Shown here in pieces: positions 4,090 through 63,555 of a stretch of DNA of 64,000 bases. The stretch is taken from the NCBI RefSeq assembly GCF_000023825.1, contig NC_013061.1:2852001-2916000 (forward strand). Direction: 5' to 3'. The number at the start of each line of letters is the position of its first letter. Positions within the stretch are counted from its first letter, which is position 1. The position numbers were made by a program, and so were the translations under genes. Source of the DNA: Pedobacter heparinus DSM 2366. Its GTDB lineage: Bacteria; Bacteroidota; Bacteroidia; Sphingobacteriales; Sphingobacteriaceae. The notes under the pieces were generated by a model. That model searched no databases, was not told the origin of the DNA, and was given only the letters and a program-made list of their open reading frames with translations.

Positions 4090-5250
4090 TTAAACGGCCA
4101 AAGCCATTCTTTTATTTCGGGCAATCAGCATCCAGGCAAATACGGCCCCGGTTAAGGCCATTAAGGTACCCACCCATACCGGAGAAGTATAATCATAGCC
4201 AGCTGCCAGGGGCAAACCACCTAAAAAGGCACCCAAAGCGTTGCCTATATTAAAACTGGCCTGGCTAACAGATGCAGCAAGCATCTCCGAGCCTTTGGCC
4301 GTTTTGATCATCAGCATCTGGATCGGTGCCGCCAGGGCAAAAGCCACCGCACCGGTAATGAAGGTCATGACCAGCGAAAGTACCTGATTGGTAGAAATAT
4401 AATGTACAATAAATAAGGTAACCGCCATGGCAATCAGCAAAGAAACAGAAGCTTTTGCCGGCGAAAACCTGTCGGCCAGCTTGCCCCCTATAAAGTTACC
4501 AACCAGCATACCCAGGCCGGCCAGTACCAGGATGTAAGTAATCGAATCGGCAGAAAAACCCGAAACATCGGTTAAAAGCGGGGCAATATAGCTGTACCAG
4601 GAAAACAGTCCTCCTGTACCTATGGCAATCATCAGGATAATGAGCCATGCTTCGGGCAGCTTAAAGAAACCCAGTTCTTTTTTCAGATCCCTGTCCTTGG
4701 TAGCAGGCAGTGCCGGCATCCATAATTTCAGACTCAAAAGGGTAATTAAGCCTACAACAACAATGATCACGAAAGTATAGCGCCAGGAATAATTGTGACC
4801 AATAAAAGTACCCAGCGGCACACCGATCACATTGGCAATGGTTAAACCGGCAAACATCAGCGATACGGCCGAAGCTTCTTTTCCTTTATCTGCAATGCGG
4901 CTGGCCACTACCGACCCTACTCCAAAAAAGGCACCATGCGGCAAACCCGCAAGTAAGCGGGCAATAAACATGGTGGTATAATCAGGAGAAAAAGCCGACA
5001 AAGCGTTAAAGGCCACAAACATCATCATCAGGGCCATCAATATCTTTTTTGGGGGATAGCTTCCTGCAATGGCCACCAGTAAAGGTGCACCGATAACCAC
5101 ACCCAGGGCATAAGCAGAAATGAGGTGCCCCGCCTGAGGGATGGTAATGGAGAGGTCTTTTGCAATATCGGGCAACAGGCCCATCATCACAAACTCTGTG
5201 ATGCCAATCCCCAGTCCGCCAAGGGTTAAAGTGAGTAAGCTTTTCTTCAT
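4090..5250 (-). CDS. MFS transporter, AraJ/YdhP-like drug-proton exporter
   Basis: Twelve-helix inner-membrane permease of 386 residues. I start it at MKKSLLTLTLGGLGIG (ATG 5250) rather than the longer frame at 5298, because the extra 16 residues are hydrophilic and cross the promoter region. The opening GIGITEFVMMGLLPDIAKDL and the motif RLLAGLPHGAFFGVGSVVAS are characteristic of the arabinose-efflux/chloramphenicol-resistance (DHA1) group. GKLADRFSP, about residue 250, is the second-half loop motif. It probably exports small amphiphilic compounds; the substrate cannot be inferred. It stands alone between genes of unrelated function, with a palindrome over its promoter that suggests control by a repressor encoded elsewhere. 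Confidence 0.88.
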   Translation of the reverse strand: MKKSLLTLTLGGLGIGITEFVMMGLLPDIAKDLSITIPQAGHLISAYALGVVIGAPLLVAIAGSYPPKKILMALMMMFVAFNALSAFSPDYTTMFIARLLAGLPHGAFFGVGSVVASRIADKGKEASAVSLMFAGLTIANVIGVPLGTFIGHNYSWRYTFVIIVVVGLITLLSLKLWMPALPATKDRDLKKELGFFKLPEAWLIILMIAIGTGGLFSWYSYIAPLLTDVSGFSADSITYILVLAGLGMLVGNFIGGKLADRFSPAKASVSLLIAMAVTLFIVHYISTNQVLSLVMTFITGAVAFALAAPIQMLMIKTAKGSEMLAASVSQASFNIGNALGAFLGGLPLAAGYDYTSPVWVGTLMALTGAVFAWMLIARNKRMALAV

Positions 5251-5253
5251 TTC

Positions 5254-5293
5254 TGTATCGTAGTTAGTGTAACAAATACACGATACAAAAGTA
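5254..5293 (-). promoter_or_regulatory. Promoter box and inverted repeat before the MFS gene
   Basis: On the minus strand a TACTTTTG box (5286-5293) fits the Bacteroidota -7 consensus. Overlapping and following it is an inverted repeat with 8-bp arms, TGTATCGT at 5254-5261 and ACGATACA at 5280-5287, and an inner GTGTA/TACAC pair. A palindrome covering the start of transcription is the usual place for a repressor operator. The cognate regulator is not in this window. Confidence 0.4.
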
Positions 5294-5352
5294 ACCAATA
5301 AAGCCGGCCCTTTTCGTCTTTAAAAGGTAATTTTTATCCGCTGATATTTATT

Positions 5353-5982
5353 TTATACCTGTCCTATATAAGTGCTTTTGGAAGTTTCCGAGCGGTCGGG
5401 AGATACAAATGAAATGTAAACCTCTGCTGGTTCTTCTATTAAATTTCCAGGCAGTAACATCAGTTCTTTTCCCTCCATTCGCTTCGCCACATATAACATG
5501 CTGATCGCCGCTTTTGACTCCGGAAAATAAGCCATCAGCAGGGCCTGATCAGATCCGTTCCCCCAGGAAAATCCATCCGTATCCCAGGTAAACGCTATTC
5601 CGGCAGCTATCCTGCTGGCCTCCGGATTTTCTGCAGGCAATAGTTCTCCTTCACTCAGTATTACATTTGGACAATCGATCTCTATGTCCGGATAATAACC
5701 TTTAAGTACATCTTTTTTATTATAAGCAATGGCCAGGTTGTAATAATTTTTAGTGCTGCCCTTTGCCGCTGAACTAAACCCAGCTTTTAAATAGCCTTTC
5801 ATCGTATGAAAAAAATTGTTGAGTACTTTCATACGCAATTCATTATCGAGTTGTTTTTCACTGGAACGTGTTCTTTTATGTCTCACCATCCTGGTCACGT
5901 TCTGTCCGTTCAGCACATAACTGGTGATATTGCCGGTAGTACCGGTTAGCGGCCCGTAAAGGCCATTTAATAATTTACCCAT
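5353..5982 (-). CDS. DUF6266 family protein
   Basis: A 209-residue protein of the DUF6266 family, which I know mainly from Pedobacter and relatives, often in several copies per genome. The N-terminus MGKLLNGLYGPLTGTTGN and the following RHKRTRSSEKQLDNE are the family hallmarks. The middle has the aromatic pattern KNYYNLAIAYN, and the C-terminal half is beta-rich and ends in DRSETSKSTYIGQV. It has no signal peptide or membrane segment. Function is unknown; I do not assign one. On its upstream side lies an unusual 11-bp periodic repeat. A TATCTTTA sequence at 6015-6022 (minus strand) is a near match to a -7 promoter box. Confidence 0.78.
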   Translation of the reverse strand: MGKLLNGLYGPLTGTTGNITSYVLNGQNVTRMVRHKRTRSSEKQLDNELRMKVLNNFFHTMKGYLKAGFSSAAKGSTKNYYNLAIAYNKKDVLKGYYPDIEIDCPNVILSEGELLPAENPEASRIAAGIAFTWDTDGFSWGNGSDQALLMAYFPESKAAISMLYVAKRMEGKELMLLPGNLIEEPAEVYISFVSPDRSETSKSTYIGQV

Positions 5983-6070
5983 AATCAGTTTTTTAGCAAT
6001 TTTTGTTAGTTAAGTAAAGATAATCAATGCTTTACACATCATCACTATCTGCAGATCATTATTTTAAAAC

Positions 6071-6180
6071 ATTTTTTAAACATTTTTAGATCATTTTTAA
6101 ATCTTAGTTAGGTCAAATCGACCTAGCAAGGACCTAGTAACGTCCTATTAAGGTCCTAGTAATGTTCTAAAAATATATAG
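6071..6180. repeat. Ten-unit 11-bp periodic repeat in the DUF6266-YtxH intergenic gap
   Basis: The 307-nt gap between 5982 and 6290 holds no gene. Its core is a run of degenerate 11-mers in one register. The first three, at 6071, 6082 and 6093, are A/T-rich forms such as ATTTTTAAATC. A later block from 6115 carries CCTA-type ends: AAATCGACCTA, GCAAGGACCTA, GTAACGTCCTA, TTAAGGTCCTA, GTAATGTTCTA. The drift is gradual, so it reads as an old slipped tandem array or as phased protein-binding half-sites, one per helical turn. The flanks (6181-6289) are AT-rich and I see nothing else in them except the start-site region of the YtxH gene. Confidence 0.7.
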
Positions 6181-6289
6181 AGCAGGAAAAACACTTTCTT
6201 CTTCTTTTAAAGCACTAATAAAAAGAAAATTAAAACAAAGTCCCCCTTATAACCGTTTATACTCTGATAATCAATTACAGGAGTGCATT

Positions 6290-6694
6290 ATGAATTATAA
6301 GAAACTAATAACAGACCGCTTTTCAGGCATACCGCACAGACCGACAGATACTACAGGAGCAGTGATCGCTTTGCTGACGGGACTGGCAGTTGGGGCGGTG
6401 CTGGGTGTATTGTTTGCACCGGAGAGTGGAAAAAAGACCAGGGAAAGAATTTCCGACAAGGCTTTGGATTTAACAGATAACCTTAAAGATGGTTATCAAT
6501 CGGTAAAAGACAGGATATCGGCCGGTAAAGATGATATTGTAGGTTTAAAAGACCGGGTTGTAGACAATGTAAAAAACAAGGCAAACGCCGTTTCGCAGGA
6601 ATTTAAAGAGTTCAAAGATGCGGAAACAGAAAAAGTAAAATCAGGTGTAAAACAGGCAGCTGATAATGCCAATGATACCATTCAGGACATTTAG
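6290..6694 (+). CDS. YtxH domain protein (gas-vesicle-like stress protein)
   Basis: A 134-residue protein with one membrane segment at about residues 24-43 (AVIALLTGLAVGAVLGVLFA) followed by PESGKKTRERI, the YtxH signature. The rest (about 50-134) is a long charged amphipathic helix with repeated K/D pairs (DNLKDGYQSVKDRISAGKDD), likely a coiled coil. Members are general-stress proteins of unknown mechanism that sit in the membrane with the tail in the cytoplasm. A good AGGAG Shine-Dalgarno at 6279-6283, six bases before the ATG, is unusual for this phylum and fixes the start. It is transcribed convergently with the following MFS gene. Confidence 0.85.
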   Translation: MNYKKLITDRFSGIPHRPTDTTGAVIALLTGLAVGAVLGVLFAPESGKKTRERISDKALDLTDNLKDGYQSVKDRISAGKDDIVGLKDRVVDNVKNKANAVSQEFKEFKDAETEKVKSGVKQAADNANDTIQDI

Positions 6695-6749
6695 TAGCCT
6701 ATAAACCGTATAAGTACAAATGGAACAGCCGGCTTTTTCCGGTTCAGCG

Positions 6750-6793
6750 AAGGCTTTCAGCTCAATGGCTTAACGCTTTGATCTGAAAGCCTT
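6750..6793. terminator. Convergent terminator hairpin between YtxH and MFS genes
   Basis: Perfect 11-bp arms, AAGGCTTTCAG (6750-6760) and CTGAAAGCCTT (6783-6793), enclose 22 nt. The left arm includes the stop of the minus-strand MFS gene. A smaller CCGG/CCGG hairpin lies just before it at 6729-6742. No long U-tract follows, so efficiency is uncertain. Confidence 0.4.
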
Positions 6794-7920
6794 TGGTGTT
6801 TAAAAAATAGCTGTGTAATGGGGATCAGCAATATCCCGCACAGGGCAAAAATGACAAAAGACACCCTTAAATTGAAGGCATGGGCCAGATAGCCAATTAA
6901 AGGCGGGCCAAGCAACATCCCCGTAATGGAATAGGTGGCAATGATGGATATGGCCATACCTGCCGAATATTTTTTTGAAGCACCGGCCAGGGCGTAAGAC
7001 ATCGGGATTACAGCCGCGGTACCAAAACCTACCAGCGAAAAGCCGACCATAGCCGTCCAGAAATACGGAAAAATAATGGCCAGACAAATGCCCGAAACAA
7101 TACAGCTTGCGCTCATGATATAGGTTTTTGGCATGCCAAAGCGTGCCACAATGAAATCGGATAAAAATCTGGAAGTGGCCATAAAGGTCATGAAGATCAG
7201 GTAACCATAGGTAAAGATCTCTACTTTTATAATTTCCTGGAAATAGATACCGCTCCAGTCGAACATCCCCCCTTCACAGATGGCACAAAGGAAAACCACC
7301 AGGCCCAGGTAAAAAATATAGGGATCTGGCTTGCTCAAAATGAGCTTGTTACCGGTTTCGGAGCGGTCTCCCTTCAGCAAATACTGGTAAGCATATAGGC
7401 TAAGCGACAGCATCACAATGGCTACAGCCGTAAAATGAATCTGGATGGGTACATTGAAACTGAGCAAAAGTGTAGACAGCAGGATTCCTGCTATGCCACC
7501 CATGCTCCAGTAACCATGAAAAGAACCCATGATCTTTTTATCGAAACGCTTTTGCAGGGTTAAGGCCTGGGTGTTTACAGAAATATTAAAGATACGGGTG
7601 GTAAAGGCAAATACCACTACGGCCAAAACCAGGCTTAAGGTATTGTGTGCAAAACCAATAAGCGTAAGCGCCAGCATGTTGAGTCCGTAGCCCAGCGTTA
7701 AAGGTCCGCGGCTGTTGTATTTGGACACCAGCCAGCCCGAAATGGGCAGGCCCAGCAGGGAACCTATGGGCAGGGCCAGCAATATACTGCCCAGCTCGGC
7801 CTCATTGAAACCAAAAGTAGTTTTAATGGTCGGGATCCGCGAAGCCCAGGTAGAAAAACTTAAGCCCGACATAAAGAAAAACAGACTTAAAAAGAAACGA
7901 TGTTTTGTGTTAGAGATCAT
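6757..7920 (-). CDS. MFS transporter, YbjJ/MosC-like
   Basis: Inner-membrane permease of 387 residues with about twelve hydrophobic segments. The N-terminal pattern FFFMSGLSFSTWASRIPTI and FGFNEAELGSILLALPIGSL matches the YbjJ/MosC branch of the major facilitator superfamily, and GSFHGYWSMGGIAG follows at about 130-145. MosC was linked to rhizopine metabolism and YbjJ has no firm substrate, so none is assigned. No neighbour suggests one: the thiamine operon upstream is divergent. It could be a precursor permease, but it lacks its own TPP element. A -7 promoter box lies just upstream. Confidence 0.82.
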   Translation of the reverse strand: MISNTKHRFFLSLFFFMSGLSFSTWASRIPTIKTTFGFNEAELGSILLALPIGSLLGLPISGWLVSKYNSRGPLTLGYGLNMLALTLIGFAHNTLSLVLAVVVFAFTTRIFNISVNTQALTLQKRFDKKIMGSFHGYWSMGGIAGILLSTLLLSFNVPIQIHFTAVAIVMLSLSLYAYQYLLKGDRSETGNKLILSKPDPYIFYLGLVVFLCAICEGGMFDWSGIYFQEIIKVEIFTYGYLIFMTFMATSRFLSDFIVARFGMPKTYIMSASCIVSGICLAIIFPYFWTAMVGFSLVGFGTAAVIPMSYALAGASKKYSAGMAISIIATYSITGMLLGPPLIGYLAHAFNLRVSFVIFALCGILLIPITQLFFKHQRLSDQSVKPLS

Positions 7921-55121: not shown

Positions 55122-55688
55122 TTATTTTTTTAATTCGTCGAGCGCCAGATTTAGCTTTAATACATTTACACGTGATGGACCAAACATCCCTAAAAAAGGG
55201 CCTTCGGTATACTTTACCACCAGTTCTGCAACAGTTCTTTCGGTAAGGCCACGTGTGGCTGCCACCCTTTTGATCTGTATAATGGCCCCCTGTTCGGAAA
55301 TGTTGGGATCCAGTCCGCTTCCCGATGCAGCAACCATATCGGCAGGGATATCTGCCTTTTTAAGGTAGGGATGGTATTTTAACAAAGTATCGATCCTGCC
55401 TGAAACTAAGGCCAGGTATTCGGCATTGGAAGGGCCCTTATTGGAGCCTCCAGATCCGGCAGCGTTGTAAGCCACAGCAGAGGGCCTACCCCAGAAATAT
55501 TCGGGTTGGCTAAAGTTTTGTCCCAATAAGGCATAGCCCACTACTTTTCCGTTTTTAGTGATTTTCTCGCCCCCACCATTGCCTCTGGAAAAGTTGCCTG
55601 CAAAGGCAACAATTAAAGGATAGATGACACATAAGAGCAGCATCAGTACTGCAGTAAGGCGTATAGATTGTAACAGGTATTTTTTCAT
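55122..55688 (-). CDS. kdpC: Potassium-transporting ATPase subunit C
   Basis: A 188-residue subunit with one N-terminal membrane helix (RLTAVLMLLLCVIYPLIVAF) and a periplasmic domain carrying the family blocks YFWGRPSAVAYNA, NAEYLALVSGRID, MVAASGSGLDPNIS and RVAATRGLTERTVAELV. It stabilises the complex and raises ATP affinity. Eleven nt separate it from kdpB. The porin follows. Confidence 0.96.
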   Translation of the reverse strand: MKKYLLQSIRLTAVLMLLLCVIYPLIVAFAGNFSRGNGGGEKITKNGKVVGYALLGQNFSQPEYFWGRPSAVAYNAAGSGGSNKGPSNAEYLALVSGRIDTLLKYHPYLKKADIPADMVAASGSGLDPNISEQGAIIQIKRVAATRGLTERTVAELVVKYTEGPFLGMFGPSRVNVLKLNLALDELKK

Positions 55689-55699
55689 GATTTCTATTT

Positions 55700-57730
55700 T
55701 TAAATAAATAATCCTACCATCAGGTCAATTAATTTTATGCCGATGAAAGGTGCAATTACCCCTCCTAACCCATATATAAACAGGTTTCTGCGCAGCAAGG
55801 CGCTGGCACCTATGGGTTTATAGGCAACACCTTTTAAGGCCAGGGGAATGAGGAAAGGAATGATGATGGCATTAAAAATTACGGCCGATAAAATTGCACT
55901 TTCAGGACTGTGTAGCCCCATGATATTCAAATGCTGTAAAGCAGGGATGGAAGCAATAAACAGGGCCGGTACAATGGCAAAATATTTGGCCACATCGTTT
56001 GCGATAGAGAAGGTGGTTAGCGTGCCACGGGTAATCAGCAGTTGTTTGCCGATCTCTACGATCTCGATCAGTTTGGTAGGGTCATTGTCCAGGTCGACCA
56101 TATTACCGGCTTCTTTAGCTGCCTGCGTACCACTGTTCATGGCCACGCCTACATCGGCCTGTGCCAAAGCGGGGGCATCATTGGTACCATCACCCATCAT
56201 GGCTACCAGTTTACCCAGTGCCTGCTCCTCTTTGATATAGTTCATTTTATCTTCCGGCTTGGCTTCGGCAATAAAATCATCAACCCCTGCTTTTTCGGCG
56301 ATGAACTTAGCGGTTAAGGGATTATCACCGGTTACCATTACGGTTTTCACCCCCATCTTGCGCAAGCGTTCAAAACGTTCACTGATGCCGGGCTTAATGA
56401 TATCCTGCAGTTCGATTACTCCGATGGCTTTTTCATTTTCGGCAACTACCAATGGGGTACCACCATTGTTGGCTATAGCTTTAACCTGGTCTTCAATATC
56501 CATTGGAAAAGGGTTTCCGGCCATCAACACGATGTTACGGATAGCGTCAAATGCCCCTTTCCGGATGCGTTTTCCATCAGGGGTATCAATACCGCTCGAA
56601 CGTGTTTCGGCAGTAAATTTGATAAATTTTGCTCCTTCAGGTGCAACAGCATGACTATGGCTGTCCTGTAAAGCCGCAAGCTCTACTATAGATTTTCCTT
56701 CAGGCGTATCATCTGCCAGTGAGCTCAGCACACAGGCATCCATGAAGTTTTTGATCACTATCCCGGTGGTAGGGTAAAAATTTGTGGCCTTACGATTACC
56801 TATGGTAATGGTTCCGGTTTTATCTAAGAGGAGGACATCTATGTCGCCAGCAGTTTCAACTGCCTTGCCCGATTTGGTGATCACATTGGTCCTTAATGCC
56901 CTATCCATCCCCGCAATGCCAATGGCAGAAAGGAGCCCGCCAATGGTTGTAGGGATCAGACATACAAACAGGGAGATCAGGGCTGCTATAGTGATCGGCG
57001 TATTTGCATAATCGGCAAAAGGCTTTAAGGTTACGCATACGATGATGAAAACCAGGGTAAAACTGGCCAGCAAAATGGTCAAAGCAATTTCATTGGGTGT
57101 TTTCTGACGGGATGCACCTTCTACCAGGGCGATCATCTTATCCAGAAAGCTCTCGCCAGGCTGAGTGCTTACCTGTACTTTGATCTCATCAGAAAGCACT
57201 TTTGTACCACCGGTTACGGATGATTTGTCGCCACCCGATTCGCGGATAACGGGGGCTGATTCACCTGTAATGGCCGATTCATCAATTGTAGCTATACCTT
57301 CAATGATCTCGCCATCGGTGGGGATGGTATCGCCTGCTTCGCAGATAAATACATCCCCTTTTTTGAGCAGGTTTGAAGAGCGCACCTCAACCTTTCCATT
57401 GCTCAGCAATACTTTGGCCGGTGTTTCTTCCCTGGTTTTCCTTAAACTGTCGGCCTGAGCTTTTCCGCGGGCTTCGGCAATGGCCTCGGCAAAGTTGGCA
57501 AAAAGTACGGTAAGCAATAAGATCAGGAAAATAAAGAAGTTGTATACGGCCGATCCCTGTCCGGGGTTGTTCATTGAATAAATGGTAACATAGGCCATAA
57601 TGGCCGTACCGATCTCGACCGTGAACATGACAGGGTTACGGACCATCACCCTTGGGTCGAGTTTAATAAAAGACTGTTTAAATGCAGTTTGCACTAAAGC
57701 AGGTTCAAATAATTTATGAGAAGTTTTCAT
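55700..57730 (-). CDS. kdpB: Potassium-transporting ATPase ATP-binding subunit
   Basis: The 676-residue P-type ATPase subunit. It has the phosphorylation motif [18 protein letters not shown] in the actuator domain ([13 protein letters not shown]), [18 protein letters not shown] and [22 protein letters not shown]. The order of helices and the RKGAFDAI nucleotide loop are as in E. coli KdpB. It couples ATP hydrolysis to potassium uptake through KdpA. Ten nt separate it from kdpA. Confidence 0.98.
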
Positions 57731-57740
57731 CTGTCTGTTT

Positions 57741-59459
57741 CTATTTAAGCATCGTAAAATATTCTGCCAGGGGGCCTAAGGCCAGTGCAGGGAAATAAGA
57801 AAGTGCATTTAACACCAGGATTACTGCAAAGGTCATCAGGCTGAAAGTCAGCGTATCTGTTTTTAGCGTACCAGCCGATTCGGGGATGTATTTTTTGGCA
57901 CCTAGTAAACCGGCAATAGCCACCGGACCAATTATGGGCAGGAAACGACCAAGTATCAATACGAAACCTGTGGCCACGTTCCAGAATACATTGTTGTCGC
58001 CCAGCCCTTCAAAGCCCGAGCCATTGTTGGCATTGGAGGAGGTCATTTCATATAACATTTCAGAGAAGCCATGAAAGCCGGGATTGTTCAGCCAGTTTTT
58101 GGGCTGTACGGCCCAGGCCGCATCCCCATGGTTTGTAAAGACATAACTGGCTATAGCGGTACCAGCCAAAATCAAAAAAGGGCTTAACAACGTGATCAGC
58201 GCCGCTATCTTGATTTCCCTGGCCTCTACCTTATGCCCAAGAAACTCTGGTGTACGGCCCACCATCAGTCCGGAAATAAATACAGCGATGATCAGGTAAA
58301 TAAAGTAATTCAACATCCCTACTCCACAGCCCCCGTAAAAGGAGTTGATCATCATGCCCAGCAATTGCCAGGTTCCTGTTAAAGGCATGGTGCTGTCGTG
58401 CATGCTGTTTACCGAACCGGTAGAGATGATGGTGGTTACTGTACTCCAGTAAGCAGATATGGCTGGACCAAAACGTACCTCTTTACCCTCCATGGCGCCT
58501 GTAGCCTGCGAAATACCCATTTTTGCAATTGCCGGATTACCCCCCAGTTCGCTGCTCAGCGTAGGGACCAGCAGGAGCAGCATGCCTATGGTCATTACCC
58601 CGAAGATCATCCAGGCCAGTTTTTTACGCCTGATGAAGTAACCGAAGGCAATGACCATGGCGATGGGGATGATCACCTGGGCAATCAGTTCGACCATAGC
58701 GGTCAGGTAATTTGGATTTTCCAAAGGGTGTGAAGAATTGGCACCAAACCAGCCTCCACCATTGGTACCCAGGTGTTTTATGGCAATAAAGCCGGCGGCC
58801 GGGCCACGGGATACATTTACGGTATCACCCTGCAGGGAGATAAACTGGTCTTTACCTTCGTAACTGGTTGGTGTGCCATTAAAAGCCAGGATAAGGGCCA
58901 TAATTAAAGACAGGGGCAATAACAAACGGGTAATTGATTTTACAAAGAAATCCCAGAAGTTGCCCAGTTTAACCGAAGTTTTATCTCTGAAAGCTTTAAA
59001 AAACACGACCGCAGCAGCTATACCGGTTGCACAGCTTACAAACTGTAAAAACATGAGTACATAATGCTGGGTGAGGTAACTTACCCCAGATTCTCCGGAA
59101 TAATGTTGCAGGTTACAGTTTACGACAAAACTGATAATGGTATTGAAAGACAGATCTGCCGTCATACCGGGATTACCATCAGGGTTCAGGGGTAGTTTAT
59201 CCTGGTATATCAGTACAAAAAAACCGTATACCAGCCAAACCAGGTTAATGGTAAGCAGTGCTTTCATGTGCTGCTTCCAGTTCATCTCTTCTTTGGGGTT
59301 GATTCCGGACAGCTTAAATATGCCGTTTTCGAGTGGTTTCAGAAAGTCTGTCCAGACTTTTTCTCCGGCAAAAACTTTTGCCAGGTATTTACCCAGCGGA
59401 ATAGCTATGACCAGCGTGAGCAGGTAAGTAGCAACAATTCCAAGTAATTCAGTGTTCAT
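57741..59459 (-). CDS. kdpA: Potassium-transporting ATPase potassium-binding subunit
   Basis: The 572-residue channel-like subunit, with four SKT-type membrane-pore-membrane repeats. Filter-type segments are visible: [45 protein letters not shown] and [15 protein letters not shown]. Nearly the whole protein is membrane. It follows kdpF by 9 nt and precedes kdpB by 10. Confidence 0.98.
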
Positions 59460-59468
59460 AGTTTTTAA

Positions 59469-59546
59469 TTAAAATTTTTCTGGTTTAATCAGCACGTAGA
59501 TCATATAGATGAAGACGGCGATTGCGATAAGGAATAATGCGATCAT
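59469..59546 (-). CDS. kdpF: Potassium-transporting ATPase subunit KdpF
   Basis: A 25-residue single-helix peptide, MIALFLIAIAVFIYMIYVLI then KPEKF, matching the KdpF pattern including the Y-x-L-I-x-P-E-K-F end. In E. coli it stabilises the KdpABC complex. A longer frame reads through the same bases from 59696, but only this short product fits the family and position directly before kdpA. Confidence 0.9.
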   Translation of the reverse strand: MIALFLIAIAVFIYMIYVLIKPEKF

Positions 59547-59551
59547 AACTT

Positions 59552-59635
59552 TTAGATTTTTTCGAACCAGTCGATTGATTTGTAAAATAACCTGCATAAG
59601 ATGAGCAGGGCAAGGAGCAAAAGGATTGTTAACAT
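59552..59635 (-). CDS. Putative 27-residue membrane peptide upstream of kdpF
   Basis: A short frame MLTILLLLALLILCRLFYKS followed by IDWFEKI, with stop five bases before kdpF. It has one hydrophobic helix and an amphipathic, charged end, in layout like KdpF but in another reading frame. I am not certain it is translated: no Shine-Dalgarno is visible, as usual in this phylum. Being first in the operon and tightly spaced favours it as a real small gene. Confidence 0.5.
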   Translation of the reverse strand: MLTILLLLALLILCRLFYKSIDWFEKI

Positions 59636-59661
59636 AATTGTGTTGTTTTTGAGAAGCTATA

Positions 59662-59677
59662 GCCAATTGGCATACCA
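59662..59677 (-). promoter_or_regulatory. Possible sigma-54 promoter of the kdp operon
   Basis: Minus-strand TGGTATGCCAATTGGC aligns with the -24/-12 consensus TGGCAYG-N4-TTGC, with the final GC read as GG (or GC one base later). It lies 26 nt before the first small reading frame. The nearby NtrC-type activator makes a sigma-54 promoter plausible, but the -12 mismatch is a serious weakness. Confidence 0.35.
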
Positions 59678-59744
59678 CAAGAAGAAAAAAATACACAACT
59701 ATCTATAAATCAATATGTAAAAGAAAATACAAAAAACCTGGTAA

Positions 59745-59776
59745 ATAAAAAACCCTTCCATTTTGGAAGGGTTTTT
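59745..59776. terminator. Bidirectional intrinsic terminator
   Basis: AACCCTTCCA (59751-59760) pairs with TGGAAGGGTT (59764-59773) over a TTT loop, with an A-run on the left and a T-run on the right. On the minus strand it ends the transcript of the flavin-oxidase-like gene and insulates the kdp operon. Confidence 0.85.
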
Positions 59777-59805
59777 ATCATTATGGAAGCTTAGGGAAAC
59801 CTGTG

Positions 59806-60342
59806 TTAAATGTTGATCCTTCCTTCTACTGAGTCATCCAGTGTTTTGCCAATTGCTGTACCGATCATCATTTTAACACCTGCAACCAGGTTACCATGCT
59901 TGTTATCCCAGTAATACCCGAAAGACGGCACTATTTTTAACAGCGAAATACGGGGATCATTCTCCCCTTCTGTAAACCATACTTTCAGGAAGGGGCTCCA
60001 AAGTTCCTTTATTTTTGTCTTGTCGTCATGAATACTTGCTTCTGCGGTAAGATATAGGTAATCCGAATGCTTAGAGCCCTGAAAATAGAGTTTTACCCTT
60101 GAATCAAGTGCTACTTCGGCATTTACATGGCTGTCATTTGCACTGATGACCCATAGGTTCCCCTCATCATCCACCTGTTGGATAGTCATTGGTCTTACGC
60201 CTCCGGAAGGTCCGGAAGCCGGTTCTGTACAAAAAAAACAGGTTTCAGCCTGCTCTATTAGCTCTTTGATTTTTTTTACGGCTTCTTCCCGGCCTAAATT
60301 TTCTATAGTATCTTCCGGCTGATTTTTATTAATGCTGTTCAT
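59806..60342 (-). CDS. Pyridoxamine-phosphate-oxidase-like general stress protein
   Basis: A 178-residue split-barrel protein. Its pattern TCFFCTEPASGPSGGVRPMTIQQVDDEG, then LWVISANDSHVNAEVALDSRVKLYFQ and FLKVWFTEGENDPRISLLKI fits the general-stress-protein-26 group, which binds FMN or similar cofactors. Known members have weak or no pyridoxamine oxidase activity. It lies alone between the NtrC-type gene and the kdp operon, with its own terminator, so a direct link to potassium is not shown. Confidence 0.87.
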   Translation of the reverse strand: MNSINKNQPEDTIENLGREEAVKKIKELIEQAETCFFCTEPASGPSGGVRPMTIQQVDDEGNLWVISANDSHVNAEVALDSRVKLYFQGSKHSDYLYLTAEASIHDDKTKIKELWSPFLKVWFTEGENDPRISLLKIVPSFGYYWDNKHGNLVAGVKMMIGTAIGKTLDDSVEGRINI

Positions 60343-60428
60343 AGGAATAGGAGTTAGATAAATTTTATGTTCCTAATAAACAGGTTATGGATGGGAATGT
60401 TTCCGCTCTTTTAAGAAAATGAAATTGT

Positions 60429-61775
60429 TCACACTGCCGTGCCTATTTTCAGTTCTTCAATTTTACGGTACAGGGTAGTCAGGCCAATTCCCAATAGTCT
60501 TGCGGTTTCTGTTTTATTGCCACGGGTGTATTTCAGTACTTTAATGATGTGCTGTTTTTCCACGGATTCCATTTTTAAGGCATCAGTCTCAGGAATTTGT
60601 CCACCCAGATGAAACTCATAAGGCAGCAGGCTGCTGCTGAGTTCCTGCCCATCCGCCAGAATAGCCACACGTTCCATCACATTTTTCAGTTCCCTGATGT
60701 TACCTTTCCAGGCGTGTTTCAACAACAATTCTTCAAAATCAGTATCCATTTTAAACTCGGGCTTGTTCACCTTATCTGCAAACTCTTTCAGATAATGCCT
60801 GGCGATCAATAAAATGTCAGATTTACGCTGCGATAAAGCAGGCAGCTCTATAAAAAACACAGAGAGCCGGTAATACAGGTCGAGCCTGAACCTACCTGCT
60901 TCTGCTTCCAGTTTCAGATCTCTGTTGGTAGCTGCTATGATGCGTACATTTACTTTGCTGGTCTGCGTATCGCCCACCTTAATAAAGGTTTGGTTTTCCA
61001 ATACCCTCAGCAATTTGGCCTGCAGTTCCATGTTCATTTCTCCTATTTCATCTAAAAATATAGTGCCTTCATGGGCTTCCTCCAGCAAACCCTTCTTGTC
61101 TTTAACCGCCCCGGTAAAGGCACCTTGTTTATGGCCAAACAATTCACTTTCCAGCAGTTCATGGTTAAAACCACTGCAATTTACGGCAACAAAGGGTTTC
61201 ATTTTACGGGGACTTTCGTAATGGATGGCCTGTGCAAACACTTCCTTACCCGTTCCGGTCTCGCCCAAAAGCAATACAGTGGTATCTGTGGCCGCTACTT
61301 TTCTGGCTAGTTCTATGGCTGCTATGATGGCTTTCGACCGGCCCAGAATCCCCTCAAAACTATACTTTTTACCTACCTTGTTTTCCAGCTCATTTATGCG
61401 GTACTGCAGCTTTGCCTTATCCAAAGCTTTGTAAACCAATGGAATGATCTTATCGTTATCATCGCCTTTGGTAATGTAATCAAAGGCACCATTGCGCATG
61501 GCCATTACCCCGTCGGCTATGGTGCCAAAGGCCGTCAGGTTAATTACCTCTGCATAAGGCTTTATTTTTTTAATTTCCCTGACCAGCTCGACACCGTTAA
61601 TATCAGGAAGTTTTACATCGCTTATGACTACATATACATCCTGACTGGAAAGAATTTTGAGCCCCTCCTTTCCGGTACCGGCCTGAAAGACCTTAAAACC
61701 TTCCAGTTCTATAATGCGTGCCAAAAGGCTGCATATTTTTTTTTCGTCATCAATGATCAGAACCGTATTCTGCAT
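60429..61775 (-). CDS. NtrC-type sigma-54-dependent response regulator
   Basis: A 448-residue activator: receiver (1-120, phospho-acceptor Asp53 in VISDVKLPDINGVE), AAA+ domain (about 143-380) with Walker A GETGTGKE at 171-178 and the sigma-54 contact loop GAFTGA at 218-223, and a Fis-type helix-turn-helix (KYTRGNKTETARLLGIGLTTLYRKI). All elements for remodelling sigma-54 polymerase are intact. It is the only response regulator near the kdpD/kinase pair, and I infer that it replaces the OmpR-type KdpE. The orphan kinase could still have other partners elsewhere. Confidence 0.93.
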   Translation of the reverse strand: MQNTVLIIDDEKKICSLLARIIELEGFKVFQAGTGKEGLKILSSQDVYVVISDVKLPDINGVELVREIKKIKPYAEVINLTAFGTIADGVMAMRNGAFDYITKGDDNDKIIPLVYKALDKAKLQYRINELENKVGKKYSFEGILGRSKAIIAAIELARKVAATDTTVLLLGETGTGKEVFAQAIHYESPRKMKPFVAVNCSGFNHELLESELFGHKQGAFTGAVKDKKGLLEEAHEGTIFLDEIGEMNMELQAKLLRVLENQTFIKVGDTQTSKVNVRIIAATNRDLKLEAEAGRFRLDLYYRLSVFFIELPALSQRKSDILLIARHYLKEFADKVNKPEFKMDTDFEELLLKHAWKGNIRELKNVMERVAILADGQELSSSLLPYEFHLGGQIPETDALKMESVEKQHIIKVLKYTRGNKTETARLLGIGLTTLYRKIEELKIGTAV

Positions 61776-61795
61776 AGCCTATAATTTCAGCAATA

Positions 61796-62710
61796 TTAGC
61801 AATTATTCGAGACAAGTATGTCGTCATGAACGTCAAATTTACTCCTGATGTGGTTCCTTACCGTATTCAGGATTTCCTTTGCTGTATAACTGTGATCGTA
61901 TCTGATCTCGACTGTAAAACTACATTGGCCCGCCAGATTATTTGTCATGATATCTGTATGAATTGCAGTTACCTGCATCCTTACCGGATCAGGTAAATCC
62001 CTTTCTATTGGAAAAACGTATTCAGAAAACCATCTGATATCGTTTAATGCTGTACATAGTGCATTGGTTCCTTCTGCAAAAGGAACCAGACTTGCTCCAG
62101 GATGAGCAGTACACTCGAGCCGCATTACCTGTAGCCGGTTTATATTTTTTGCAGACTGCCCTCCTTCTGCCTTATGCGGATCGAAGAGCATGGCCGTACA
62201 CAAACAATTGCATCGCTTTTTATTTTCCAGAATGTTATAATTTACACAGCTTTTGCAACCTTCCCAAAAAAATTCGTCCTGCGTGATCTGGGCAAAACTA
62301 ACCGGTTCAAATCCCAGCTGGGTGTTCAGCTTCATCATTGCGGCGCCAGAGGTGATACTGAAAATCTTTGCCCCTGGATACCTGCTGCGCGACATCCTGA
62401 AAATCCGCTCCTTAATTGCCCTTGCTACACCTGCATGGCGAAACCTGGGCGCAACGATAAGACCAGAGTTGGCCACAAAACTGTTGTTTTGCCAGACTTC
62501 AAAATAGGCAAAGCCTACCCATTCGCCAGTACCAGTAACTGCAACCACAGCTTTTCCACCCTTCATTTTTTCGGCAATGCTTTCCACTGTACGGTTGGAA
62601 ATACCGGAGCCACGTGCTACGGCCGAAGCAGCGGTTTCATTTACAATTTCATGTGCATACCTGATGTCTTCTTCAGTTGCTATACGTACAAATATCATTT
62701 GATTATCCAT
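61796..62710 (-). CDS. GNAT acetyltransferase fused to an orphan M20-peptidase dimerisation domain
   Basis: I start at ATG 62710 (MDNQMIFVRIATEEDI; 304 residues), as the longer frame adds 30 atypical residues. Residues 1 to about 183 are a GNAT domain with acetyl-CoA loop RFRHAGVARAIKERI and a Cys-rich end (FWEGCKSCVNYN, RCNCLCTAMLFDPH), like the GNAT gene next to argG in Bacteroidota. Residues about 190-295 (ECTAHPGASL, EGTNALCTALNDIRWF, PVRMQVTAI, CSFTVEIRYDHSYTAKEIL) match the dimerisation lid of ArgE/DapE deacetylases, without the metal-binding catalytic domain. The two halves are in frame and stop normally. It may have arisen by deletion between arg genes. Confidence 0.75.
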   Translation of the reverse strand: MDNQMIFVRIATEEDIRYAHEIVNETAASAVARGSGISNRTVESIAEKMKGGKAVVAVTGTGEWVGFAYFEVWQNNSFVANSGLIVAPRFRHAGVARAIKERIFRMSRSRYPGAKIFSITSGAAMMKLNTQLGFEPVSFAQITQDEFFWEGCKSCVNYNILENKKRCNCLCTAMLFDPHKAEGGQSAKNINRLQVMRLECTAHPGASLVPFAEGTNALCTALNDIRWFSEYVFPIERDLPDPVRMQVTAIHTDIMTNNLAGQCSFTVEIRYDHSYTAKEILNTVRNHIRSKFDVHDDILVSNNC

Positions 62711-62871
62711 GATAAATTCAATTTTACAAGCCCCTTTCAAAGTGGATGCCTGTTTGGGCCGGTGCTTAGAAAAGCGTATAAAAACCATTGAAAACATCAT
62801 TTATTTATTTCATGACCTTTTTATGGCAATAGGAAACCTTATCAAAATGGCAGGGTTAATTTCATTTTAGT

Positions 62872-62901: not shown

Positions 62902-63555
62902 ATGAAATTAAGATCCCATATACCCCTTTCTTTTTTAATTCTTTTGGTTTTTATACTTTCTGCCTGCGGTGATGCAAAAAAGCTACCTGTATTGGGGCCC
63001 AGGACAACAGAAACGGTTAAAAATGCTGACGGAACGACCCGCGTGGATACTGTTTTTAAAACGATTCCGGCATTTAGCTTCTTAAACCAGGATTCTGTAA
63101 ACATTACCCAGGATAAGTTTAAAGACAAGATTTATATAGCCGATTTCTTTTTTACTTCCTGCACCACCATTTGTCCGACTATGCACCGCAACATGAAAGC
63201 GATTTTTGAAAAATACAAGGACAATCCTGAGGTAATGTACCTTTCACATACCATTGATTTTAAGTATGATACACCTGCTGTACTTAAAAAATATGCGCAG
63301 AAACTTGGTGTTGATGATGGCAGATGGCAGTTTGTTTATGGCATTAAGGACAGCGTGTATAAGATAGCCGAGAAGGACTATCTGGTAGCCGTAATTGAAG
63401 ATACGACTGCTAAAGACGGCTATATACATCAGGGCTGGCTGGTATTGATAGATAAACAAAAGCGCATTCGCGGTGCTTATGATGGTACCGATACCAAGCA
63501 GGTAGACCAATTGATGAAAGACATTCCGGTTTTACTGGCTGAAGATAAAAAGTAA
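62902..63555 (+). CDS. SCO1/SenC family copper chaperone lipoprotein, second copy
   Basis: A 217-residue paralogue of the Sco protein at 43105. Lipobox LSAC near residue 22. The copper ligands are intact: FFFTSCTTICPTMH and the His in LSHTIDFKYDTP. A stretch between (DTVFKTIPAFSFLNQDSVN) is shared with the first copy, and the ends GYIHQGWLVLIDKQKRIRGAYDG and GFIHQGYLVLVDKEKRIRGFYDG differ at few positions. It precedes a cytochrome c lipoprotein by 3 nt, so it probably serves a cytochrome oxidase or cytochrome maturation step. Confidence 0.93.
   Translation: MKLRSHIPLSFLILLVFILSACGDAKKLPVLGPRTTETVKNADGTTRVDTVFKTIPAFSFLNQDSVNITQDKFKDKIYIADFFFTSCTTICPTMHRNMKAIFEKYKDNPEVMYLSHTIDFKYDTPAVLKKYAQKLGVDDGRWQFVYGIKDSVYKIAEKDYLVAVIEDTTAKDGYIHQGWLVLIDKQKRIRGAYDGTDTKQVDQLMKDIPVLLAEDKK

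Follow-up and report, generated by a model that had tools for sequence, protein, structure and literature searches.

A GNAT domain fused to an orphan M20 dimerisation lid beside the kdp operon of Pedobacter heparinus

We find that Pedobacter heparinus DSM 2366 carries a gene in which a GNAT acyltransferase domain is joined to the dimerisation lid of an ArgE-type (M20) enzyme, without the catalytic part of that enzyme. The gene lies at 61796..62710 on the minus strand of the window (the whole 64,000-nucleotide stretch that we analysed), and the fusion is confirmed as real and intact: the minus-strand frame from 62710 to 61796 translates without a stop into 304 amino acids, and the same fusion, always in an open frame, is present in 10 of the 145 genomes of the genus, several of them single-contig. 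The host genome is itself a single contig of 5,167,383 bases, with the fusion gene at 2913799. Judged from the comparisons below, the gene is old, has been kept by selection in at least ten species and is no oddity of one genome, and it probably encodes a functional GNAT2-type acyltransferase in which a lid captured from ArgE2 serves as an oligomerisation module. Searches of the open-access literature turned up no account of either an orphan M20 lid or a GNAT-lid fusion.

The two halves of the fusion

The start of the gene is set by its relatives. A longer frame that opens at 62800 is unsupported as the true start, because the relatives' proteins open with M(E/D)NQMIFVR. Counted from this start, residues 1-178 (62177..62710) form the GNAT domain, residues 179-195 (62126..62176) a poorly conserved linker, and residues 196-294 (61829..62125) the M20 dimerisation lid, with strands and helices in the order b-a-b-b-a-b; a C-terminal tail ending VSNNC (61799..61828) closes the protein, all on the minus strand. 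An AlphaFold model of the fusion, built from 3 sequences only, has a mean pLDDT of 43.6. A defence-system library gave no match.

The initial annotation had assigned the N-terminal half to the GNAT protein encoded beside argG in Bacteroidota and the C-terminal half to an ArgE lid without its catalytic half, and both assignments hold when the halves are searched separately. The N-terminal half matches three Pfam GNAT models with scores just below the cut-offs and is 54% identical over 178 amino acids to the argG-adjacent GNAT of the same genome (GNAT1), with which it aligns over its full length, RG[ST]GI and the Cys cluster included. The acyl-CoA motif R/Q-x-x-G-x-G/A is present as RHAGVA or RNAGVA in all ten fusions (FRHAGVA here), and the Cys cluster C-x2-C...C-x-C-x-C is intact in each of them. 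The family is that of the Bacteroidota N-acylglutamate synthases, whose members BT3761 and Cabys_1732 make N-acetylglutamate or, probably so in Bacteroides, N-succinylglutamate (PMC7311316; PMC5317091). These share the acyl-CoA motif and the Cys cluster with the fusion; they are stand-alone GNATs, however, none with an M20 lid, and the fused paralogue lies by kdp and not by arg. Whereas GNAT1 stands beside argG at 5089273, the fused GNAT lies outside the arginine cluster and adjoins a regulator gene and kdp. An intact arginine cluster, for which the annotation had suggested looking elsewhere in the genome, is found at 5.08-5.09 Mb, 2.2 Mb from the fusion, in the order argH-argE-proC-argB-argF-argD-argC-argG-GNAT, with the GNAT gene directly before argG. 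In another Bacteroidota family we see a separate fusion event, which joins the argG-adjacent GNAT to ArgG in proteins of 623 and 592 amino acids (L104 1357-3228; L106 1202-2980).

For the C-terminal half, the M20 dimer domain, whose absence from a profile search the annotation had named as a refutation, is recovered as Pfam PF07687 (M20_dimer) above the cut-off (E=1.2e-5). A phmmer search with the lid finds the homologous residues 175-269 of PDB 3ct9, a listed acetylornithine deacetylase (E=1.3e-12), and a profile of fused and free lids finds the 3ct9 lid at 1.2e-19. Identity to the ArgE of the same genome is 34%, and the lid is 31-36% identical to ArgE1. The metal-binding catalytic domain PF01546 gives no match in the fusion, though intact ArgE2 matches it, and in an alignment with ArgE2 the M20 catalytic segments before and after the lid are both absent from the fusion. 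Also absent, in all ten fusions and in three related free lids, are the residues with which an M20 lid reaches into the active site (GHAA with the lid His; HNxVP). In the fusions of G037 and G128, 11 lid residues between strands 2 and 3 are gone. The known enzymes of this type, 3ct9 and BT3549, the latter a candidate N-succinylcitrulline desuccinylase by genetics (PMC7311316; PMC5317091), differ in having catalytic halves, metal ligands, the lid His and the HNxVP loop, all of which the fusion lacks. In DapE, also an M20 enzyme, the ferredoxin-like domain is the dimer interface and is needed for catalysis, and it bears a His possibly involved in substrate binding (PMC4012986).

A recurrent neighbourhood at kdp

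Directly downstream of the fusion, across a 20-bp gap, lies a conserved neighbour, an NtrC-type sigma-54 response regulator (60429..61775, minus strand; Pfam Response_reg, Sigma54_activat and HTH_8). It is followed by genes named from sequence as kdpA (57741..59459, minus strand), kdpB (55700-57730) and kdpC (55122-55688), which together make up a conserved downstream context, syntenic in fusion loci, lid-only loci and most GNAT2-ArgE2 loci. Upstream, the divergent SCO1-like gene (62902..63555, plus strand; Pfam SCO1-SenC) stands beside fused and unfused GNAT2 alike and marks the syntenic slot. Many congeners have a separate GNAT2 (~200 aa) followed directly by a full-length ArgE2 (~370-380 aa), and in several of them this pair stands exactly where the fusion does here, flanked by the SCO1-like gene and the sigma-54 regulator and upstream of kdpABC. 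The cassette GNAT2-ArgE2-sigma-54 regulator-kdpABC is recurrent in the genus (window 55122-62710; loci L066-L103).

What would tie the fusion to Kdp and to the sigma-54 regulator is its position, and we know of no link between N-acyl-amino-acid enzymes and potassium uptake. When the regions upstream of GNAT2, of ArgE2, of the regulator and of kdpA were scanned for sigma-54 promoters, no candidate near the fusion rose above background. In seven genomes (L066, L069, L070, L084, L085, L090, L094) the sequence TGGCAy-N4-ATTGG stands 217-223 bases before kdpA; it is sigma-54-like, without the GC at -12. The cassette also varies: frameshifts break both GNAT2 and ArgE2 in L088 (G004, 5349-6988), where the regulator and the kdp operon are intact; L075 (G005, 5196-6566) has GNAT2 but no ArgE2, and the adjoining regulator, its receiver domain missing, is shortened to 214 aa; and G043 and G078 have an extra, more divergent ArgE-like gene downstream of the kdp sensor-kinase genes (L092 2883-4064; L093 16195-17367).

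Distribution of fused and free lids

Among the best matches, those listed in our surveys of the family (399 genomes) and the phylum (395 genomes), no fusion appears outside the genus, and among those listed in the phylum survey no GNAT from outside the genus extends past residue ~199. Because none of these passes that point, the lid is not native to the GNAT family; a native lid, which the annotation had named as fatal to its own reading, is thus not what the listed matches show. In a tree of GNAT2, all ten fusions group with the GNAT2 of G099 (85/94), and G099 is nested inside that group (82/75). The G099 protein has no lid and its tail still reads SQLVSNNY, and from tree and tail together we take it to be a case of secondary lid loss; the lid is thus not indispensable, since this lineage dropped it again.

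Lids also occur on their own. In G029, G035 and G139 a lid-only gene of 121-135 aa, encoding the same degenerate lid as the fusion but unfused, lies between the sigma-54 regulator and kdpA, with a full ArgE2 alongside; Pfam at E<=0.01 misses four of the five free lids. Fused lids and the free lids of these three genomes fall into a single clade (100/96) that excludes every catalytic ArgE2 lid, a grouping on long branches that calls for caution, and they share jointly derived residues, for example S/A-L replacing the lid His region and EGT replacing EGDN. The fusions as a single clade in the lid tree are not rejected (p-AU 0.38). In G051 and G086 the lid-only genes are cut differently and stand directly after GNAT2, in the place of ArgE2; a single origin of all lid-only forms, these two included, is not rejected (p-AU 0.34), and the G051 and G086 genes are probably separate in origin from the other free lids.

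ArgE1 is present in all ten fusion genomes, and ArgE2 is missing from six; the four that retain a full ArgE2 have it adjoining kdpA. In the free-lid genomes G029, G035 and G139 the arrangement within the same cassette is the other one, with the full ArgE2 ahead of the regulator and the lid next to kdpA. Since these placements differ between fusion and free-lid genomes, copies have been duplicated and rearranged.

Origin of the fusion

By these comparisons the ancestors of the fusion are a duplicated pair, GNAT2 and ArgE2, and not the arginine cluster itself. GNAT2 and ArgE2 were once neighbours close to the kdp operon; one copy of ArgE2 shed both catalytic segments and retained the lid, and in one lineage a free linker came to connect this lid with GNAT2, in an order of steps that we infer. 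The initial annotation had suggested that the gene arose from duplicated arg genes. That much stands as far as duplicated copies are concerned, and gives way on the direct partners, which in relatives are the kdp-linked GNAT2-ArgE2 pair. Its proposed event, one large in-frame deletion within a duplicated arginine cluster, we regard as exceedingly improbable. Both families are indeed encoded in that cluster, but the adjacent GNAT2 and ArgE2 of relatives supply both partners with no arg gene in between, so that a deletion across a whole copied cluster is unnecessary, and a single deletion is insufficient because the catalytic segments upstream and downstream of the lid are both missing. No remnants of other arg genes were seen at this slot in the loci examined.

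The tail of the protein bears on how the steps may have run. The fusion ends in VSNNC or VSNNY and the ArgE2 that abuts the regulator in the same slot ends in VSDNY, which suggests decay of ArgE2 in place; alternatively, the shared tail could have been retained because the following gene starts there. The free lid-only genes point to another possible route, in which catalytic loss came first and fusion afterwards.

Selection on the fused lid

Between distant fusion pairs the codon rates have reached saturation, and we therefore draw conclusions on selection from the closer pairs. Among these, dN/dS is 0.02-0.08 for the GNAT half, with 0.02-0.09 for the GNAT domain, and 0.05-0.13 for the lid, whose pN/pS stays at <=0.42 even at the bootstrap upper limits, and the frame has no stop or frameshift among the 10 genomes. 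The linker shows what unconstrained sequence looks like within the same gene, with 6-31% identity and a pN/pS of 0.6-0.8 between more distant fusions. By these rates purifying selection acts on the fused lid, and the retention of both fused pieces by selection in at least ten species suggests a separate function for the lid. Compared with catalytic ArgE2 lids, helix 1, strands 2 and 3 and helix 2 keep 55-77% identity, and the two active-site loops fall to 19-20%; the alignments thus have the loops decayed while helices and strands persist. Intact GNAT motifs together with a constrained lid fit an active acyltransferase that has the lid as a structural module.

Another reading makes the lid a functionless relic of a decaying ArgE2, read through by chance. 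The decayed loops are in its favour, as are the loss of the whole lid in G099 and the frameshifted GNAT2 and ArgE2 of G004, yet the low lid dN/dS with its bounded pN/pS, the ten uninterrupted frames and the contrast with the relaxed linker make it very improbable.

Proposed function

If the fusion is, as we favour, an acyltransferase with a captured lid, the lid would pair GNAT subunits as it formerly paired M20 subunits, acting in oligomerisation or as a scaffold, and would no longer serve deacylation. The GNAT domain would still acylate glutamate or a related amino acid, with acetyl or succinyl as the group transferred, and, going by linkage, it would probably share a regulon with the neighbouring sigma-54 regulator and Kdp.

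The lid could also act in trans, pairing with full-length ArgE1 or ArgE2 subunits, either to target GNAT2 to the deacylase or to form inactive mixed dimers, and so coordinate acylation with deacylation. The retained part of the lid is its pairing surfaces, a full ArgE2 shares the cassette with the free lid in G029, G035 and G139 and is present in four of the ten fusion genomes, and every fusion genome has ArgE1. Against this, the six fusion genomes without ArgE2 show no relaxation in the pairs tested: lid constraint there (L001-L007, L014-L015) is 0.08-0.09, no weaker than in ArgE2-bearing genomes. The lid-only genes of G051 and G086, moreover, stand where ArgE2 would, and identity to ArgE1 is low (the 31-36% given above). 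We consider a trans-acting regulator unlikely. Because the constraint is equal where ArgE2 is gone, self-pairing of the lid is favoured, and pairing with ArgE2 is the less likely arrangement.

Classical ArgA N-acetylglutamate synthase consists of an amino-acid-kinase domain and a GNAT domain, and the former controls the latter in response to an amino acid. The fusion resembles it in that a GNAT of the kind that starts arginine synthesis is joined to an accessory domain from another arginine-pathway enzyme, and differs in the accessory domain itself, in the reverse domain order and in its unrelated origin. By the same token the lid might be a ligand sensor through which arginine or another amino acid controls the GNAT. 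The b-a-b-b-a-b order of the lid, read from its secondary structure, is the same general topology as that of ACT domains, helix 1 and strand 3 are strongly conserved, and the fused enzyme is of a family that acts at the outset of arginine synthesis. We identified no motif of a ligand site, however, and think a sensor improbable.

Discussion

The domains united by fusion are usually complete ones, with a catalytic or a binding role. In this gene, an accessory domain from the interior of a metalloenzyme has been excised on both sides, retained by selection and reused by an enzyme of the opposite reaction. The genus still holds intermediates, namely the adjacent pair, the free lid, the lid-only gene beside GNAT2, the fusion and its secondary loss, and since such intermediates exist, the steps of domain capture are directly testable with small proteins. 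A broader reading, doubtful in our judgement, would make the M20 lid an independent regulatory module, free or fused to GNAT, that lost its catalytic domain perhaps repeatedly and that binds GNAT, ArgE or a metabolite and so controls an acyl-amino-acid metabolism tied to potassium uptake. The fusion also draws attention to a connection, so far unstudied, of N-acyl-amino-acid metabolism with a sigma-54 regulator and the Kdp potassium pump.
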